A DNA stretch of 64,000 nt from contig JAETTM010000006.1 in assembly GCA_021769135.1 (NCBI GenBank), positions 62,001-126,000 of the forward strand. Reading direction: 5' to 3'. The notes under the pieces are model-generated. The model did no database searches. It saw nothing but the letters and a program-made list of their open reading frames with translations, and was not told where the DNA came from. Positions within the stretch are counted from its first letter, which is position 1, and every line of letters begins with the position of its first letter. This DNA is from Lachnospiraceae bacterium (GTDB lineage: Bacteria > Bacillota > Clostridia > Lachnospirales > Lachnospiraceae). A program made the translations under genes and the position numbers. Positions 15,013-45,501 of this stretch are shown here, one piece after another.

Positions 15013-15231
15013 TATATTATAAGTGGAAAAAGAATATGATAGAAATAAGCATGATTATTTTTGAGGTCGGAAATGGTTCCCGACGCACTCTGAAAAGAGT
15101 ACCTGAGATGATGGATACACCGCCCATCCAAAAATAATTGTGCTTTTTATTTAGGGGGTTTTTTTGAATGACCGTTTTCTGCTCAACTGTCTCTTCCATA
15201 CTGTCACCAGTGATGTTTCACGCATGTTTTC

Positions 15232-15735
15232 TGAAAAAAGTAAATGCATATTACATGCATTTCGGCGTAATGGCGGATGATACTGTTCAGGGCGTGGTAT
15301 ACTTCCAATGCGATACCAATATCCTGCATTCCATTATTAACAAAATACAGATTGGAGAAGAAGGGCTACCTACATTTTGGACAAGGAAGGAACCACCATT
15401 GCCGCATTGGAGATAGAAGAAGCGGAAAACAAGAAAAATCTAATCCGGGAAATGGCAGATAACCCCAATGACAAATTCATACAGGAACTAATGGCCGGAG
15501 TATCGGCGTAACCATTCGCGAACAGGCCCAATCGTTAAATGCGCCAAGCGTTTTCATGCCCTTTCGGAAGGTGCCCTGACTACAGCCAATACGCCGGAGA
15601 ATTATCCTGGCGATTTCCGTTCACTTCAGGAGGCCCAGGTAGGAGAACTGGCCGGGCAGGCGGCTGAATAGACGGAACTGATGGCTGTGGCCGTGGAAAG
15701 CCAAACCAGTTCCATCTTCCAGGTCAACTAGGCCG
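15232..15735 (+). pseudogene. degraded copy of the methyl-accepting chemotaxis protein at 701-2746
   Basis: Blocks [125 protein letters not shown] match the intact MCP, with internal deletions, frameshifts and stops. Confidence 0.92.
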
Positions 15736-18466: not shown

Positions 18467-18480
18467 ACACTTTAACCCAA

Positions 18481-18564
18481 TGCGGAAGATGGAACTTGAA
18501 CCCACACGATGTAACCATCACAAGATCCTTAGTCTTGCTCGTCTGCCAATTCCGACACTTCCGC
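18481..18564 (-). tRNA. tRNA-Leu (AAG), variant copy with U61
   Basis: 84-nt type-II tRNA; acceptor GCGGAAG/CTTCCGC, anticodon loop CTAAGGA, T-arm GTGGGTTCAAGTTCCAT. Confidence 0.88.
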
Positions 18565-18858
18565 ATAAAGCCCTGATAAATCATGAATTTACTCTTTTTC
18601 CACGCAAGATACTTTTTAGATTTCTGTCGTAAGACTACCCAATTTGGAGAAAGTAGTCTGACGAGTCACTATTTACTTCTTGTTCCTTTTATTATTTCTA
18701 ATCTTGCGAGAAAAGTAAAGGACTTTTTAAAAATATTGTGCATGGATAAAAGACACTGGTTTTGGCAGAATAGAAATGAGAAAAAACTTGATTCATAGAT
18801 GGGACTATGGTATCTTAAATTAAGAAGTATCAATGGCAAGAAGAAAGCAGGTGAGTTT

Positions 18859-20016: not shown

Positions 20017-20032
20017 TTTCCCAAGGGTTAAA

Positions 20033-20116
20033 TGCGGAAGATGGGACTTGAACCCACACGATGTAACCATCACAAGATCCTTAGTCTTGCTCGTCTGCCA
20101 ATTCCGACACTTCCGC
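20033..20116 (-). tRNA. tRNA-Leu (AAG), canonical copy
   Basis: 84 nt, identical to copy 1 except C61; complete cloverleaf. Confidence 0.93.
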
Positions 20117-20310
20117 ATACGCAATGGAAAATAACTTTATGTAAATTCCCATGCCGCGAGTAATATAATACCATTGCCCAGTGAAAAAGTCAATGGATTT
20201 CCTCTAATTTTTTCCGGATTTTTTTCGATTGTTTTTCGATGCTTTTTTTGAAAAAATTTCAAATTATCAGTTGACAAATCAAAAAAAAAAAGATACAATA
20301 TGTTTTGCGT

Positions 20311-24156: not shown

Positions 24157-25971
24157 TCACTTTATGGGCGCCGTCGCCTCCGCCAGCCATTCCCGCTCTT
24201 CTTCGGTCAAATACTCTTGTGTCTTTGCATACACCTGTTCGTGGTAGTGGTTCAGCCGCTCCACATCCGCCGGCTGCATATAGGAAATGTCGATTCCTTC
24301 CCTGTCAATGGGCACAAAGGTAAGGGTGCGGAAGCGCATAAACTGCCCATCCCCATTTTTCTCCGCATTTTCCGCCACAAGGATATTTTCTATACGGATG
24401 CCATGGCTGTTCTCCTTGTAAACCCCCGGTTCGTTGGAAACAATCATCCCCGGCTCGATTACCGCCTCCTTCATTGCGGATGTATAGCGCCAGCGTATGT
24501 TCTGGGGGCCTTCGTGGACATTCAGCATATAGCCGATGCCATGCCCTGTTCCGCATTTATAATCAATCCCTTTCTCCCAAAGGGGCTGCCTGGCCAGGAT
24601 GTCCAGGTTCCTCCCTGTACACCCATATAAAAATTTCGCATCCGTCAGATGCAGCATCCCCATGGCCACTAACGTATAATGCATCCTTATTTCATCGCTT
24701 ATTTCCCCTAGCACAATTGTCCTGGTCACATCCGTAGTTCCGCCCAGATACTGTCCGCCGGAGTCCACCAGGAGCATCCCTTCCTCAGAGAGCACTTTAT
24801 GGTTCTCCTCCGTGGCTTCATAATGCATCATAGCCGCGCTGTCTTTATAAGCGCTGATAGTGGGAAAAGATAAATCCAGGAAGCCTTCCGTATTCCGGCG
24901 CAGGTTATCCAAGTATTCCGCAGCCGATACTTCCGTTATCTCCTGTTTCCCGATATTCTTTTTCAGCCAGTAAATAAATTTGATAACGGCTGCGCTGTCC
25001 TTCCGATACACCTCTTCGATTTTTGAAAGCTCCGTAGCGTTTTTTACCGCCTTCATTAACTCTGTCGGGTTATCCCCCGCCACAGGCTCCGTATGTCCGG
25101 CAACCGCTTTATATAATGCAAAGCTAATGTTATTCTCATCCACCAGGACCTTCCCTTTATAATCGTATCCATCCAGGAAATCCCCGATTTCCTCATATCC
25201 TTTCACCGTAATATGGTTATCCCTGGCATACCGGGCGAATTCCTCCGTCACCTCTGGCTGTTGGATAAAAAAGTACATTTCCTCCATAGTCAGGAAGCCG
25301 TAGGACAGGGCCACCGGGTTGCACTTCACGTCATTTCCCCTGATATTGAGAAGCCACATCAGGTCATCCAGTTTGCTTAATAAAAGGTATTGCGCCCCCG
25401 CTTCTTTTACTTTTTCCCGCACATCCTTTAACTTTTCCCCTACGCTCCTGCCGCTTATTTCGTCCTGCAGAACCGTCACTTCATGACAGGGCAGCTTCGG
25501 GCGGTCCGCCCATACTCCTGCCGCCAAATCCATCCCATAGCAGATTTCTATCCCTTTCCCCCCCGGCGCTTTCCCAGCCAGCTTTTTTTCCAGCTTGCGG
25601 CCTTCCATGCAGCTTACCGTACGCCCATCAAAGCCCAGCTTTTGCCCCTCCTTCATGTTCTCATATAAGAAATCCGGTATCTCCGGCACCCCTTCTTCCT
25701 GCATCCGGAACAAAGTTACCCCCGTTCCCTCCAGTTCCCGTTCCGCTTGTATGAAATACCGCCCGTCCGTCCACAGGCCTGCCATATCCTGCCCGACCAC
25801 CAATGTTCCGTTAGAGCCCGTAAATCCCGAAAAATATTCCCTGGCCTTAAAAAAATCATCCACATATTCCGAATTATGAAAATCGGACGTAGGAATCATA
25901 TAAAAATCCACGCCTTCCTTTCGCATCTCACTCCTTAATAATGTCAGCCTTGTTTGAATCTTCTCATTCAT
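24157..25971 (-). CDS. Xaa-Pro aminopeptidase (M24 family)
   Basis: M24 C-terminal motifs (LLVDSGGQYLGGTTDVTRT; YKCGTGHGIGYMLNVHEGPQ; IVSNEPGVYKENSHGIRIEN). Confidence 0.93.
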   Translation of the reverse strand: MNEKIQTRLTLLRSEMRKEGVDFYMIPTSDFHNSEYVDDFFKAREYFSGFTGSNGTLVVGQDMAGLWTDGRYFIQAERELEGTGVTLFRMQEEGVPEIPDFLYENMKEGQKLGFDGRTVSCMEGRKLEKKLAGKAPGGKGIEICYGMDLAAGVWADRPKLPCHEVTVLQDEISGRSVGEKLKDVREKVKEAGAQYLLLSKLDDLMWLLNIRGNDVKCNPVALSYGFLTMEEMYFFIQQPEVTEEFARYARDNHITVKGYEEIGDFLDGYDYKGKVLVDENNISFALYKAVAGHTEPVAGDNPTELMKAVKNATELSKIEEVYRKDSAAVIKFIYWLKKNIGKQEITEVSAAEYLDNLRRNTEGFLDLSFPTISAYKDSAAMMHYEATEENHKVLSEEGMLLVDSGGQYLGGTTDVTRTIVLGEISDEIRMHYTLVAMGMLHLTDAKFLYGCTGRNLDILARQPLWEKGIDYKCGTGHGIGYMLNVHEGPQNIRWRYTSAMKEAVIEPGMIVSNEPGVYKENSHGIRIENILVAENAEKNGDGQFMRFRTLTFVPIDREGIDISYMQPADVERLNHYHEQVYAKTQEYLTEEEREWLAEATAPIK

Positions 25972-25991: not shown

Positions 25992-26045
25992 ATTCCAGTT
26001 CCGCAAATTTCAGACTTTTGCTGTTTTCCAGTTCCGCAAATCTCC
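25992..26045. repeat. minimal copy of the ATTCCAGTTCCGCA hairpin-repeat family
   Basis: ATTCCAGTTCCGCAAATTTCAGACTTTTGCTGTTTTCCAGTTCCGCA: same boundary sequences as the 37.4-kb array but the interior is missing. Confidence 0.7.
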
Positions 26046-34254: not shown

Positions 34255-34278
34255 GCCCTTTCTGTCATCTGCCCGCAC

Positions 34279-34392
34279 CTATCCATAGATTGCATGCCTA
34301 TCCGTAGATTGCATGCCTATCCGTAGATTGCATGCCTATCCCTTGATTGCATGCCCATCCGTTGTTTGCATGCCTATCCATCGATTGCGCAC
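34279..34392. repeat. 19-bp tandem repeat, six copies, in the rnfA-rnfB spacer
   Basis: CTATCCATAGATTGCATGC, CTATCCGTAGATTGCATGC x2, CTATCCCTTGATTGCATGC, CCATCCGTTGTTTGCATGC, CTATCCATCGATTGCGCAC. Confidence 0.95.
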
Positions 34393-35791: not shown

Positions 35792-36428
35792 TGCCGCTCC
35801 CCCCTTCCATCAATACTTCCCTGAAATAATACAGTCCGCCGTTTACGCCATTGGTAACAGCGTTGGTCGTAATCGTTGCCCCGCTGATGGCATCGATTTG
35901 GTCATCCCCTGCCGCACCCGTTTTTACATATGTAAAGCTTTCTGCCGTTTTGTCTGCGAACTGGGGTTTCAGCACTTCTTCCGCGCGCATGCCCAGCCCC
36001 GCCGTTTCCGATATGGACAAAAGGGAAATCCCGTTCAGCGTACCGTCATTGCGGACGCCCATCATGAATTCAATATCGCCGCCATAGCCTTCATGGTCGT
36101 TCACGGTAATTACATAGCCCAGCACAGCGCCGCTGCCATCCAGCGCTTTCATCACTTCGCCGATATCCACGCCGGCAAAGCCCTGCTCCGCCCAGCCCTC
36201 CGGCATAAAAATGGTTTCCCCATCCTGTTCAACCACCCCAATCGTCTCAAAGGAAGCAGCATCCTGGAATACCTCCATGCAAGCCTTCTGCTTGGCCTTT
36301 TCCTTCTGTATGGCAATCGGCTCCTTCGTTACCTGATATACTGCGCCTAAAACCAATCCGGCCAGCAGCGTAATAGCGAATAAAATCATAGCGTCCTTTA
36401 ACATGCCGCCGCTCTTTTCCTGATTCAT
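35784..36428 (-). CDS. rnfG: electron transport complex subunit RnfG (FMN-binding)
   Basis: FMN-binding motif region (IDAISGATITTNAVTNGVN), single TM. Confidence 0.94.
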   Translation of the reverse strand: MNQEKSGGMLKDAMILFAITLLAGLVLGAVYQVTKEPIAIQKEKAKQKACMEVFQDAASFETIGVVEQDGETIFMPEGWAEQGFAGVDIGEVMKALDGSGAVLGYVITVNDHEGYGGDIEFMMGVRNDGTLNGISLLSISETAGLGMRAEEVLKPQFADKTAESFTYVKTGAAGDDQIDAISGATITTNAVTNGVNGGLYYFREVLMEGGSGNE

Positions 36429-37360
36429 GCTTTCTTCCCCCCTTTCGTGCCAAATGCTTTTGGCAGGGTTATCTTTTCAATTAACGGCACCAAAAGGTTG
36501 CCGATGATAATCGCATAGGAAACCCCTTCCGAAGAGGGGCCGAAAATACGGAAAATCCCCGTCAGGCACCCAAGTAAAATCCCATAGACATATTGCCCGT
36601 TCTTCGTAATCGGCCTGGTCACATAATCGGTAGCCATAAAGAAAGCGCCTAACATCAACCCACCTCCGGCCAGCTGGGCGCTGATATAAGCCGGGTCGAA
36701 GCCATGCCCCCCAAACAGGCAGGCAAACAAAACGAAGCTGACAATATAGCTGCCCGGAACGCGCAAGTCTATCACGCCCAGCAGGATTAAGAAACAAGCC
36801 CCTAAAACAATGGCTATCATGGACGTTTCCCCGATGGTTCCCGACGTCTTCCCTATAACCATGGATAAGATATCCACCGGCTCCCCGTTTTTCATCGCCG
36901 CCAAAGGCGTTGCTCCCGTATATGTATCGCACTCAAAATTGGTCATAATCGAAGTAAAAGAAATCAGCAAAAAGCACCTTGCCGCCAGCGCAGGGTTCAT
37001 AAAATTCTGCCCCAGCCCGCCGAAAAGCATTTTCACCACCAAAATGGCGAATACGCCGCCGACTACCCCTATCCACCAGGGCGCACTGGAAGGTAAATTC
37101 AATGCCAGCAAAAGCCCCGTGACCACTGCCGAATAATCCCCGATGGTCACCTTCTTATTCATTAGCTTTTCATAGGCAAATTCTGTAAAAACAGTGGTTG
37201 CCACCGTTATCGCTATCAGTATAAGCGCATCAATCCCGAAGTTGTAAATCCCGAAGCCAGCCGCCGGGAGAAGCGCAATCACCACCGCCAGCATGATGCT
37301 GCTTGTGGTCACCTTGCTCCTCACGTGGGGATTGGATGACACCTTCATCAAATCACTCAC
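36425..37360 (-). CDS. rnfD: electron transport complex subunit RnfD; likely GTG start at 37360 (the longer ORF reads into repeats)
   Basis: VSSNPHVRSKVTTSSIMLAVVIALLPAAGFGIYNFG; covalent-FMN region SMVIGKTSGTIGETSMIAI; RBS GGAGG 9 nt before GTG. Confidence 0.93.
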   Translation of the reverse strand: MSDLMKVSSNPHVRSKVTTSSIMLAVVIALLPAAGFGIYNFGIDALILIAITVATTVFTEFAYEKLMNKKVTIGDYSAVVTGLLLALNLPSSAPWWIGVVGGVFAILVVKMLFGGLGQNFMNPALAARCFLLISFTSIMTNFECDTYTGATPLAAMKNGEPVDILSMVIGKTSGTIGETSMIAIVLGACFLILLGVIDLRVPGSYIVSFVLFACLFGGHGFDPAYISAQLAGGGLMLGAFFMATDYVTRPITKNGQYVYGILLGCLTGIFRIFGPSSEGVSYAIIIGNLLVPLIEKITLPKAFGTKGGKKA

Positions 37361-37381
37361 TTGTATGTACCTCCTATTTTT

Positions 37382-37615
37382 ATTCCAGTTCCGCAAATCC
37401 CCTACCAATGCCCTTATCGCAGAGCAATTTCTGGCCGCTTTCGCGTCCACAAATTCTCTGGGGCATTGTCCGGGCACTTGCTGTTTTTTATTCCAGTTCC
37501 GCACATGCCCTACCAATACTCTTTTTCTCGCAGAGCAATTTCCAGCCGCTCCGAGTCTGTAAATTCTCCGGAGTATTGTCCAGGCATGTGCTGTTTTTTA
37601 TTCCAGTTCCGCAAG
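37382..37615 (-). repeat. tandem hairpin-repeat array (2 units + partial third), rnfD-rnfC spacer
   Basis: Units 37393-37481 and 37501-37591, period 108 bp, separated by TGTTTTTTATTCCAGTTCC; each folds into a long hairpin. Confidence 0.9.
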
Positions 37616-37626
37616 TTCCCTTCTTG

Positions 37627-38943
37627 CTACTTCTTGCGCTTGGCCAGCTGCATTTTGCGCATGGATTTGATAGTTTGGGTGAGGGGCCGTTTAGCCGGGC
37701 AGATGAAACTGCAGCAGCCGCATTCGCAGCACTCCATACCGTTATGGGAAAGGAAAGCCTCCTCATCATAATGCTCCGCAAAGTCCGCCAGTTTCCGGGG
37801 TACTACCCTTCCTGGGCAGACTTCCACGCACTTCCCGCAATTTATACATGCGCTCGGTTCCATCCTGGACACATCATCCTGGGTTAAACACAAAAGAGCT
37901 GACGCCGTCTTCGTAGTAGGCACATCCAAATCGAAAATGCCGAAGCCCATCATAGGCCCCCCGGAAACAATTTTCACCGGCTTTTCTTTGAAGCCGCCCG
38001 CCTCCTCAACCAGTTCATGGTAGTTCGTTCCAATCCTCACAATAAAATTGCGCGGATCCGCTACGGCATCCCCCGTCACCGTCACAATACGGTGCATCAG
38101 CGGCTTCCCCAGCATGACCGCATGGTAAATGGCAACAATCGTATCCACATTATCCACTACACAGCCTACGTCCGCCGGGAGCATCTTGGAATTGATGCTT
38201 CTGCCCGTAGTTGCATAAATAAGCTGTCTCTCCGCCCCTTGGGGATATTTCGTTTTTAACGCTTTGACGGTAATCCTGTTTTCGTCCTTCGTCAATTTTT
38301 TCAGCAATTCGATGCAGTCCTGCTTGTTGTCCTCCACCGCCAGAATCCCCCGGGCATTATCGAACAGCCGAAGCATAATTTTCAGGCCCTCCACCAGCTT
38401 CTCCGGCTCTTCTAACATCCTCCGGTAATCTGAAGTTAAATAAGGTTCGCACTCCGCACAGTTAGCAATCACATAATCTATTTTTTCCGGCTCTTTGGGC
38501 GACAGCTTGATAAAAGTAGGAAAACCGGCTCCCCCCATACCTACCACTCCCGCTTCCTTCACTCGGCCGATAATCTCTTCCTTCGTTAATTGCTCTGCCG
38601 ACTCCACCGGTGAATATTCCACTTCCTTATATTCCCCATCATTTTCCACCACAATGCTCATCACATTATCGCCTGTCACTACACGCCTGGGCTCAATTGC
38701 CTTAACGGTTCCCGATACCGTAGCATAAATCGGTGCGGACACAAAGCCGGACGCTTCCGCAATTTTCTGTCCGGTCAATACATAATCGCCTTTTGCCACC
38801 ACCGGCGTCGCCGGTGCGCCGATATGCTGGGATAAGGGATACACTAAATCCCCCTTGGGCAGCACCGCCTTTATCGGCTTATCTTTCGACAAATCCTTCC
38901 CGTCATAAGGATGGATACCGCCCACGAATGTTAATTTTGCCAT
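37627..38943 (-). CDS. rnfC: electron transport complex subunit RnfC
   Basis: GGIHPYDGKDLSKDKPI; VGMGGAGFPTFIKLSP; CINCGKCVEVCPGRVVPRKL. Confidence 0.95.
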   Translation of the reverse strand: MAKLTFVGGIHPYDGKDLSKDKPIKAVLPKGDLVYPLSQHIGAPATPVVAKGDYVLTGQKIAEASGFVSAPIYATVSGTVKAIEPRRVVTGDNVMSIVVENDGEYKEVEYSPVESAEQLTKEEIIGRVKEAGVVGMGGAGFPTFIKLSPKEPEKIDYVIANCAECEPYLTSDYRRMLEEPEKLVEGLKIMLRLFDNARGILAVEDNKQDCIELLKKLTKDENRITVKALKTKYPQGAERQLIYATTGRSINSKMLPADVGCVVDNVDTIVAIYHAVMLGKPLMHRIVTVTGDAVADPRNFIVRIGTNYHELVEEAGGFKEKPVKIVSGGPMMGFGIFDLDVPTTKTASALLCLTQDDVSRMEPSACINCGKCVEVCPGRVVPRKLADFAEHYDEEAFLSHNGMECCECGCCSFICPAKRPLTQTIKSMRKMQLAKRKK

Positions 38944-39087: not shown

Positions 39088-39243
39088 GAATATTCTGACA
39101 ATATATTCCGTTCAAATCCTGTTGCACCGGGCATTCCGTCAAGCCCCGGAACAGAAGTCAGTCGGGGAGCGGCCCTCCTGACTTCTATGGTCTTGACTCC
39201 ATGGTGCAGAAGGCTTTTCACAGAATATATTGTCAGAATATTC
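39088..39243. repeat. 156-bp long inverted-repeat element (MITE-like)
   Basis: Perfect 21-bp terminal inverted repeats GAATATTCTGACAATATATTC/GAATATATTGTCAGAATATTC plus internal AGAAGTCAG/CTGACTTCT. Confidence 0.85.
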
Positions 39244-43255: not shown

Positions 43256-43912
43256 TTAACCGCATAAACCAATAATCTTCTCCACCACTTCCTCTATAGA
43301 CATATCGGAAGAATCTACCAGAACCGCATCCTCCGCCTGGCACAGGGGCGAAATATCCCTGTTCATATCCCGCTCATCCCGTTCTATAATCTCTTTTTCG
43401 AGCTGTTCGAAATCGCATTCCTCTCCCTTAGCCAACAGTTCATCATATCTTCTCTTCGCCCGGACTGTGCTGCTCGCCGTCAGGTATACTTTTACGTCCG
43501 CATTCGGCAGCACGCATGTTCCGATATCCCTTCCGTCCATCACCACATCCGCATCCTTTGCCAGCTGCTGCTGCAATTCCACCAGCTTTTTACGCACTTC
43601 CGGATTGGGGCTGGTAACGGAAGCCATGTTTCCCACCTCTTGTGTCCGTATCATCCCGTTTACGTTTTCACCGTTCAGAAATACAACCTGCTCGCCGTCC
43701 ACATACCGGATGGTAATATCCGCATCCTTGCATGTCTCGCTTATTTTCTCTTTTTCTTCCCCGCGGATTCCATTTTTTAAGAAATAAAGCGCCATGGCCC
43801 TGTACATAGCGCCCGTGTCCACATAAATAAACTGCTTCCTCTCCGCAACTTTTTTCGCCACCGTGCTCTTCCCTGCCCCGGCCGGGCCGTCTATCGCTAT
43901 ATTATATCCCAT
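43256..43912 (-). CDS. cmk: (d)CMP kinase
   Basis: MGYNIAIDGPAGAGKSTVAKKVAERKQFIYVDTGAMYRAMALY; DGRDIGTCVLPNADVKVYLTAS. Confidence 0.96.
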   Translation of the reverse strand: MGYNIAIDGPAGAGKSTVAKKVAERKQFIYVDTGAMYRAMALYFLKNGIRGEEKEKISETCKDADITIRYVDGEQVVFLNGENVNGMIRTQEVGNMASVTSPNPEVRKKLVELQQQLAKDADVVMDGRDIGTCVLPNADVKVYLTASSTVRAKRRYDELLAKGEECDFEQLEKEIIERDERDMNRDISPLCQAEDAVLVDSSDMSIEEVVEKIIGLCG

Positions 43913-43933
43913 ACTGTTGTCCTCCTATTAGAA

Positions 43934-44260
43934 GTTCCGCAAGAGCCTTCCCAGTACCCAAACCCTTTGCGGATGGATTGCCGGTTGCTTTCGCACCCAG
44001 TAATCCATCCGGGGTACTGTCCAGGCTCTTGCTGTTTTTAGTTCCGCAAGAGCCCTCCCAATGCCCAAACCCTTTGCGGATGTATTTCCGGCTGCTTTCG
44101 CACCCGGCAATCCATCCGGGGTACTGTCCAGGCTCTTGCTGTTTTTAGTTCCGCAAGAGCCCTCCCAATGCCCAGCCTTTTGCGGATGTATTCCCGGTTG
44201 CTTTCGCACCCGATAATCCATCCGGGGTACTGTCCAGGCTCTTGCTGTTTTTAGTTCCGT
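43934..44260 (-). repeat. tandem hairpin-repeat array (3 units + start of a fourth), yhiN-like/cmk spacer
   Basis: Units 43939-44032, 44046-44139, 44153-44245 (period 107), same architecture as the rnfD-rnfC array. Confidence 0.92.
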
Positions 44261-45501
44261 GTCATAGAGAGCGCCGCCGATGTTCCCGCCAGATAGCCGG
44301 TAGACCAGGCAATCTGTAGGTTAAACCCTCCTGTCAGGGCGTCTACATCCAGCATTTCCCCGGCAAAATAAAGGCCTTTCACTATCTTCGACTCCATGGT
44401 GGAAGGGTTCACTTCCTTTACGCTGATGCCTCCCCGGGTAATTATCGCTTCCTCATAGCCGCGCATTCCCGTTACCGTCATCTCCATATTTTTTATGAGA
44501 TGCACAAAATGCGCCCTCTCCCCTTTTGTAATTTCATGGATTTTCTTCTCCCCCTCAATGCCGGATAAATCCACCATAACCGGAATCAGCTTGGAAGGGA
44601 ACAGGCCCCCCAGGGAATTTTTGAACTGCTTGTTCTTATTTTCTTCAAAATCCCTCAAAAGCCGCTTATCCAGCTGCTCAGGGCTTAATGCGGGCTTTAA
44701 ATCCAGACGCAGCACGGCGCGGCCGCCCTTGCATTTCTTTCCATAATAACTGCTCGCGCTCAAAATCAATGGCCCGCTCACCCCGAAATGGGTAAACAGC
44801 ATCTCCCCGAATCCTTCATAAAAAGCCTTCTTCCCATCCTGGGAAAGGGATATCTTGACATTTTTTAAGGAAAGCCCCTGTAAATCCCGGCACCATTTTT
44901 CCAGGACGGTAAGAGGCACCAGGGAAGGGGAAGTCTCCTTTATCGTATGCCCCTTTTCCTCCGCCATCCGGTAGCCGTCCCCGTCAGAACCCGTCAGAGG
45001 ATAGGAAAGCCCTCCTGTGGCCAGGATTACCCCATCTCCATATTCTGTCTCCCCATCGGAAAATTCCACGCCTTTTACCTTTCCTTCCTGTACCAGCAGG
45101 CTTTTCGCCTGCTTTCGGAGACGGATATCCACCTTTTCCTTTTTCAGCTGATTAGCAAGCGCCCCTATCACATCCGAGGAATGGTCGGAAACAGGAAATA
45201 CCCTTCCTCCCCTCTCCGTCTTCAGCCGGCAGCCCGCCTTTTCAAACCAATCCATGGCTGCCTGATTATCAAAGCCGTAAAACGCACTGTATAAAAACTT
45301 CCCGTTGGTCACCACATTGCCAAACAAAACATCCATATCGCATTGATTGGTAAGGTTACATCTCCCTTTTCCCGTAATGAAAAGCTTCTTCCCTAATTTT
45401 TCATTTTTTTCGCACAGGAGCACTTCGCAGCCCTGCCCTGCCGCAGCAGTCGCCGCCATCATACCCGCAGCTCCACCGCCGATAACAATAATTCTTCCCA
45501 T
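44251..45501 (-). CDS. NAD(P)/FAD-dependent oxidoreductase (HI0933/YhiN family)
   Basis: MGRIIVIGGGAAGMMAATAAAGQGCEVLLCEKNEKLGKKLFITGKGRCNLTN...; GGFNLQIAWSTGYLAG. Confidence 0.94.
   Translation of the reverse strand: MGRIIVIGGGAAGMMAATAAAGQGCEVLLCEKNEKLGKKLFITGKGRCNLTNQCDMDVLFGNVVTNGKFLYSAFYGFDNQAAMDWFEKAGCRLKTERGGRVFPVSDHSSDVIGALANQLKKEKVDIRLRKQAKSLLVQEGKVKGVEFSDGETEYGDGVILATGGLSYPLTGSDGDGYRMAEEKGHTIKETSPSLVPLTVLEKWCRDLQGLSLKNVKISLSQDGKKAFYEGFGEMLFTHFGVSGPLILSASSYYGKKCKGGRAVLRLDLKPALSPEQLDKRLLRDFEENKNKQFKNSLGGLFPSKLIPVMVDLSGIEGEKKIHEITKGERAHFVHLIKNMEMTVTGMRGYEEAIITRGGISVKEVNPSTMESKIVKGLYFAGEMLDVDALTGGFNLQIAWSTGYLAGTSAALSMTRN

Follow-up and report, generated by a model that had tools for sequence, protein, structure and literature searches.

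A dispersed family of tandem RNA hairpin repeats set before ribosome-binding sites in Lachnospiraceae

What are the two tandem hairpins that lie between two rnf genes of this Lachnospiraceae bacterium, and why do their arms differ in sequence yet remain able to pair? In the 64,000-nucleotide stretch of DNA analysed here (the window), the initial annotation had described two units at this place with a period of 108 bp and three more in a second array, and all five are confirmed at the positions listed below. It was also right that stem 2 is perfectly complementary, with full pairing in both rnf units, and that the array lies between the rnf genes, although the order had to be corrected: on the mRNA (minus) strand it reads rnfC, array, rnfD. 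The GNRA tetraloop that it noted in unit 1 is present there but does not characterize the family, as it occurs in 24 of 127 distinct units, among which the commonest loop is a triloop.

25995-26037, minus strand: deletion-derived mini-unit, outer stem only, before an aminopeptidase-like ORF starting at 25971 (the name is our reading of the sequence, not tool output)
36425-37360, minus strand: rnfD (TIGR01946), downstream gene of the rnf array
37370-37375, minus strand: Shine-Dalgarno AGGAGG of rnfD, with a GTG start at 37360
37377-37394, minus strand: conserved 3' terminus GCGGAACTGGAATAAAAA of the rnf array
37393-37481, minus strand: unit 1 hairpin, nearest rnfD, by folding and shuffles (model match 37385-37496); the outer stem GCAAGTGCCC/GGGGATTTGC has a single G.G mismatch, stem 2 is CAATGCCC/GGGCATTG and a GAAA loop caps the inner arm
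37501-37591, minus strand: unit 2 hairpin, nearest rnfC (model match 37493-37606); outer stem GCACATGCCT/GGGCATGTGC, stem 2 CAATACTC/GAGTATTG
37611-37627, minus strand: remnant mini-hairpin GCAAG...CTTGC at the rnfC stop, then GCGGAACTGG, by sequence
37627-38943, minus strand: rnfC (TIGR01945), upstream gene of the rnf array
43256-43912, minus strand: cmk, (d)CMP kinase (TIGR00017), downstream of the second array
43921-43926, minus strand: Shine-Dalgarno AGGAGG of cmk, with its ATG at 43910-43912
43939-44032, minus strand: second-array unit nearest cmk, by folding and model match
44046-44139, minus strand: second-array middle unit, by folding and model match
44153-44245, minus strand: second-array third unit, with the flavoprotein stop TAA inside its 5' linker (GGAACTAAAAACAG)
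44251-45501, minus strand: FAD-binding (aminoacetone oxidase family) gene (TIGR00275), upstream of the second array

Compared with dinucleotide shuffles, the five window units fold with z = -4.6 to -8.3, and none of 200 shuffles folds as well. The terminus GCGGAACTGGAATAAAAA occurs exactly three times in the rnf array, against 0.12 matches expected at up to three mismatches. At the gathering score, Rfam recognizes only a skipping-rope RNA (RF02924; 15056-15136, 76.8 bits) and one tRNA in the window and nothing for the hairpin units, and a permissive threshold (E up to 5) gave no relevant match.

Several other features of the window can be recorded here. Tandem repeats of 19 bp (CCTATCCGTAGATTGCATG) lie between rnfA and rnfB at 34278-34388, and an inverted repeat with 41-nt arms, 85% complementary and 74 nt apart, lies near the 5' side of rnfC at 39088-39243. 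Two tRNA-like stretches (18479-18567 and 20031-20119) are 99% identical and 1.5 kb apart; one of them passes the Rfam gathering score, and they could mark a tRNA pseudogene or an attachment site. The segments at 1028-2610 and 15219-15733, 14 kb apart, are partly duplicated and 77-88% alike.

Each unit is about 110 nt long and runs from AAACAG through a long interrupted hairpin to GCGGWACTnnAATAGGAGG, its 3' end running into the Shine-Dalgarno (SD) sequence. In an alignment of 129 units, 91.8% of pair cells are standard pairs (at most 44% in slid controls), double changes occur at 34 of the 35 pairs and doubly changed cells number 769, as against 198 in shuffles; because it was fitted to the model, this alignment leans towards structure. 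Stronger structural evidence comes from a tree-aware test, a G-test with average-product correction judged against null alignments evolved along a FastTree tree, in our own implementation on model-fitted rows rather than R-scape. Here the significant column pairs fell inside the hairpin in 7 of 7 cases for genome G000, 4 of 4 for G028 and 13 of 14 for G004 (24 of 25 in total), and the single exception extends the outer stem. The structural constraint lies on the sense strand: G-U outnumbers A-C in well-paired columns by 173 to 45, an excess that favours the sense-strand RNA fold as the form selected. On this comparative evidence from sequence, the predicted folding of the hairpin in cis is well supported. 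The initial annotation had read the paired changes as selection on RNA or DNA structure rather than sequence; the tree-aware pairs bear out its first part, whereas 'rather than sequence' goes too far, given that sequence conservation is also seen in the inner helix and in both flanks, AACAGC and GCGGWACT. The inner arm is conserved across genera, and the outer stems vary freely between loci.

Quasi-palindromes are known to be corrected by template switching, and mutation alone might thus copy one arm onto the other with no structural selection at all. The outer stems, often nearly perfect, would suit such a process. It predicts equal numbers of G-U and A-C on a given strand, however, rather than the ratio that we found, and it explains neither the fixed placement of the units nor the sequence-conserved inner arm. 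Already disfavoured, template switching seems to us a very improbable source of the pairing.

We also considered an intrinsic terminator or attenuator and rejected it: there is no U-run, and GCGGWACTnnAATAGGAGG or close variants follow the hairpin in the copies read. Separately, a 48-nt mini-hairpin, GTCCTAAGGAATCCACCAGGC..GCCTGATACCCCCTTAGGAC, lies in or beside units at L116, L090, L076, L087 and L099, usually in the 3' arm; it is absent from the 64-kb window.

All five window units are members of an undescribed family of RNA hairpins that recur, often in tandem, at scattered places in the genomes of a few gut Lachnospiraceae. The initial annotation had proposed a covariance-model search of related genomes, and a first model, built from these five units, recovered the repeat in other genomes: it finds about 80 copies, many of them in tandem, in the source genome (a 4.43-Mb draft) and detects the family in 6 of 60 relatives searched, with 107 matches in G028, which represents another genus, and 110 in G004, or about 105-110 copies in each of these two relatives. 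Bearer genomes that were fully counted hold between 25 and about 110 copies. The distribution is patchy. A second model, built from 129 units, finds the family in 8 of 397 members of the Lachnospiraceae, every bearer belonging to a different genus, and 391 other genomes sampled from the class yielded none; as these wide searches scored no more than the nine top candidates in each genome, rare copies may have been missed. By name, the family is found in Lachnospiraceae strain 526-35 (25 matches) and IMSAGC_002 (53), while strain 28-4 and the MAG S10_Bin3 gave no family matches. Within a set of 21 genomes, the 18-mer GCGGWACTGGAATAGGAG is present in 5 of 5 that bear the element versus 0 of 16 that are free of it. 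Two units also occur in a viral contig, where they lie after terL and before a small head gene, and phages are possible carriers of the family; two further viral-contig matches (L391 and L393) were set aside as bare 18-mer matches with no hairpin.

The fixed point of placement is the SD of the next gene, and this abutment is a feature that the initial annotation had overlooked. Behind all 154 testable arrays (those with at least 300 nt behind them) a mechanically called ORF, 60 aa or longer and in the same direction, follows within 200 nt, with an SD-like motif in 145; the distance from unit end to start codon is mostly 12-25 nt, and the usual ending is ...GCGGWACTnnAATAGGAGG. Because that criterion is loose, we ran a stricter test that demands an ORF of at least 100 aa at 6-35 nt, and found one on the sense side of 124 of 147 arrays, on the antisense side of none of the 147 and at 5.2% of random positions. 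Orientation and position are fixed. Enrichment inside operons, which the initial annotation had named as a sign of support, is not significant (78% versus 72%, P = 0.26). A known Rfam, REP or MITE family with random placement would, by the same annotation, have refuted its reading; there is no Rfam match, and the placement is highly non-random. The genes that follow, where sampled, are unrelated housekeeping genes (dnaG, gyrA-like, hisS, fabF, purA, gpsA, cmk, rnfD, uppP and dapA), and few orthologous targets are common to different genomes.

Replichore-driven orientation was rejected: on contig C5 of G028, a minority of arrays are reversed along with their own gene, and orientation therefore follows the gene.

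The relatives differ at orthologous loci. Two close relatives carry one unit between rnfC and rnfD, and four others (RnfC 95% identical) carry none. We extended the comparison to 20 loci picked for having a unit in G000; at these, G001 and G002 show full units, mini-units, SD-proximal scars, sometimes another hairpin repeat and, at a few loci, nothing, and G003 shows no units. One close relative has lost its hairpins from over half of the loci sampled, so any benefit to each gene would be weak or absent. The GGAACTGG repeats that flank the hairpin are part of the unit, and deletion between them would leave a scar of the kind that the 18-mer GCGGWACTGGAATAGGAG represents. Between G000 and G001/G002, the mutual identity of orthologous units tends to rank high, but weakly so (about 75% against a background of 70.6%), and several of these units kept many pairs through double changes.

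A second hairpin repeat, GATTGAAAATT..AATTTTCAATC..AAGTTTGTGTCTGCGCAGCATCCACAAACTT..GCTGCGCAGAAATGGAGTCAAAAATG, sits directly at start codons in G001 and G002 (L339, L345, L346, L351, L361, L364 and L371), in part at the loci of the family itself; it is absent from the 64-kb window.

What might a hairpin do so close to the SD? Computed access to the SD region is 0.615 for native leaders, 0.611 with the hairpin removed and 0.574 with the hairpin shuffled (P = 5e-7 versus native), differences that are small and that come near zero in G028. In the same folding analysis the hairpin does not sequester the SD. Since access resembles that of hairpin-free leaders and exceeds that of shuffled ones, a self-folding leader cassette fused to the SD is favoured.

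The units could instead be the leaders of a single regulon, in which the conserved inner arm is recognized by a protein or small molecule that governs translation of the targets jointly. Conservation of that arm (GGAAGGATTT..CGGAYGC..GCRGCCGGAAAT) across genera, with outer stems left free, and the position of the unit beside the SD are what one would expect of it. We nevertheless think it improbable: the targets are unrelated and have no common theme, few of their orthologs recur between genomes, loss is frequent and the SD is predicted to stay unsequestered.

Our own reading, held with confidence a little better than even, is an expandable, self-folding RNA leader cassette that brings its own SD and insulates it, growing in tandem and gained by an SD-directed route. 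Such a cassette would make up the end of the leader in the mRNA of the gene that follows. Its hairpin would fold on itself during transcription and thereby prevent base-pairing between the SD and RNA further upstream. Once folded, the hairpin would also set a structured boundary to the downstream message, at which nucleases could cut or be stopped; together, an insulated SD and a structured boundary would provide the downstream gene with an autonomous start. Copies would multiply in tandem, or be deleted, between the GGAACTGG direct repeats, and new loci would be gained by the SD-directed route, with phages as possible carriers. Effects on expression, SD insulation and a role in mRNA decay may follow from this arrangement, and the high loss rate warns against assuming a strong benefit at each gene. 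The covariation itself could also have another source: a hairpin damaged this close to the SD would trap that sequence, and the only copies to survive would be those left intact or deleted in full.

A selfish DNA element of MITE-like or REP-like kind, whose transposase or reverse transcriptase needs the hairpin and which targets the SD (CCTCCT on the other strand), would also account for many copies, genome-specific subfamilies, patchy presence, relatives with empty sites and units in a viral contig; the surviving copies would then be only those insertions that left the SD usable. Near-identical copies at different loci are lacking, however, apart from contig-end pairs that resemble assembly splits, and recent transposition is ruled against on this ground. 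A Y1 transposase is missing from four bearer genomes, no target duplication was seen (in G003 and L119-L122, divergence at the empty sites is too great for junctions to be placed) and the G-U excess favours folding of the sense strand, although single-stranded DNA also prefers G-T to A-C. We regard a selfish element of this kind as rather unlikely. Somewhat less doubtful, but still tentative, is a mobile element of a new class, with ribosome-binding sites as its specific targets for insertion; by donating a folded leader with its SD, it would give new 5' leaders to dozens of unrelated genes in one genome. If that were true, the second hairpin repeat at the start codons of the relatives would be another member of the class.

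Orthologous genes with alleles of four kinds, full, mini, scar and empty, amount to natural replicates, which could show how a stable SD-proximal hairpin affects initiation and mRNA decay, and the family offers a way to ask how an element finds ribosome-binding sites.

Several known repeat systems invite comparison with the family. ERIC/IRU and NEMIS/Correia elements are MITE-like intergenic palindromes that are often co-transcribed with their neighbours and can affect mRNA stability (PMC2229807); like the family, they measure about 100-200 bp, are multicopy and form long RNA stem-loops. They are set apart by terminal inverted repeats, by duplication of a TA target and by an intergenic placement of a generic kind, and the source describes none that runs in fixed orientation into the SD of a following gene (PMC2229807). 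A MITE of the ERIC or Correia/NEMIS type was rejected, as gene-start-independent placement is not what we observe (124/147 sense, 0/147 antisense, 5.2% random). The pneumococcal BOX element is modular (boxA-boxB-boxC): its tandem internal units vary in number, it is predicted to form RNA stem-loops and it affects genes downstream, but it is over-represented between convergent genes, whereas each testable array here precedes a gene, and its described module architecture differs from that of the family (PMC3049150). The bcr repeats of the Bacillus cereus group are, like the family, interspersed repeats of Firmicutes, some of which have a conserved RNA structure and lie in 5' UTRs and inside operons; they are not described as SD-fused and are set apart on that basis (PMC3446304). 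REP sequences and REPINs share interspersed hairpins and genome-specific families with the units described here, but REPs are 20-40 bp long, carry a GTAG or CGTC tag and depend on a RAYT (PMC3733652), whereas our units are about 110 nt long with flanks AACAG and GCGGWAC. A RAYT-mobilised REP or REPIN was rejected, PF01797 (Y1_Tnp) being absent from the bearers G001, G028, G320 and G409 (drafts 92-97% complete). In the part of the literature that we covered, no SD-fused, fixed-orientation hairpin repeat was found for Lachnospiraceae, and the novelty of the family is provisional because that coverage is partial. Hairpin repeats scattered through bacterial genomes often pass for generic intergenic repeats; the family described here is linked to the place where translation starts, its orientation is fixed, its covariation is clear and its copies number up to about 110.
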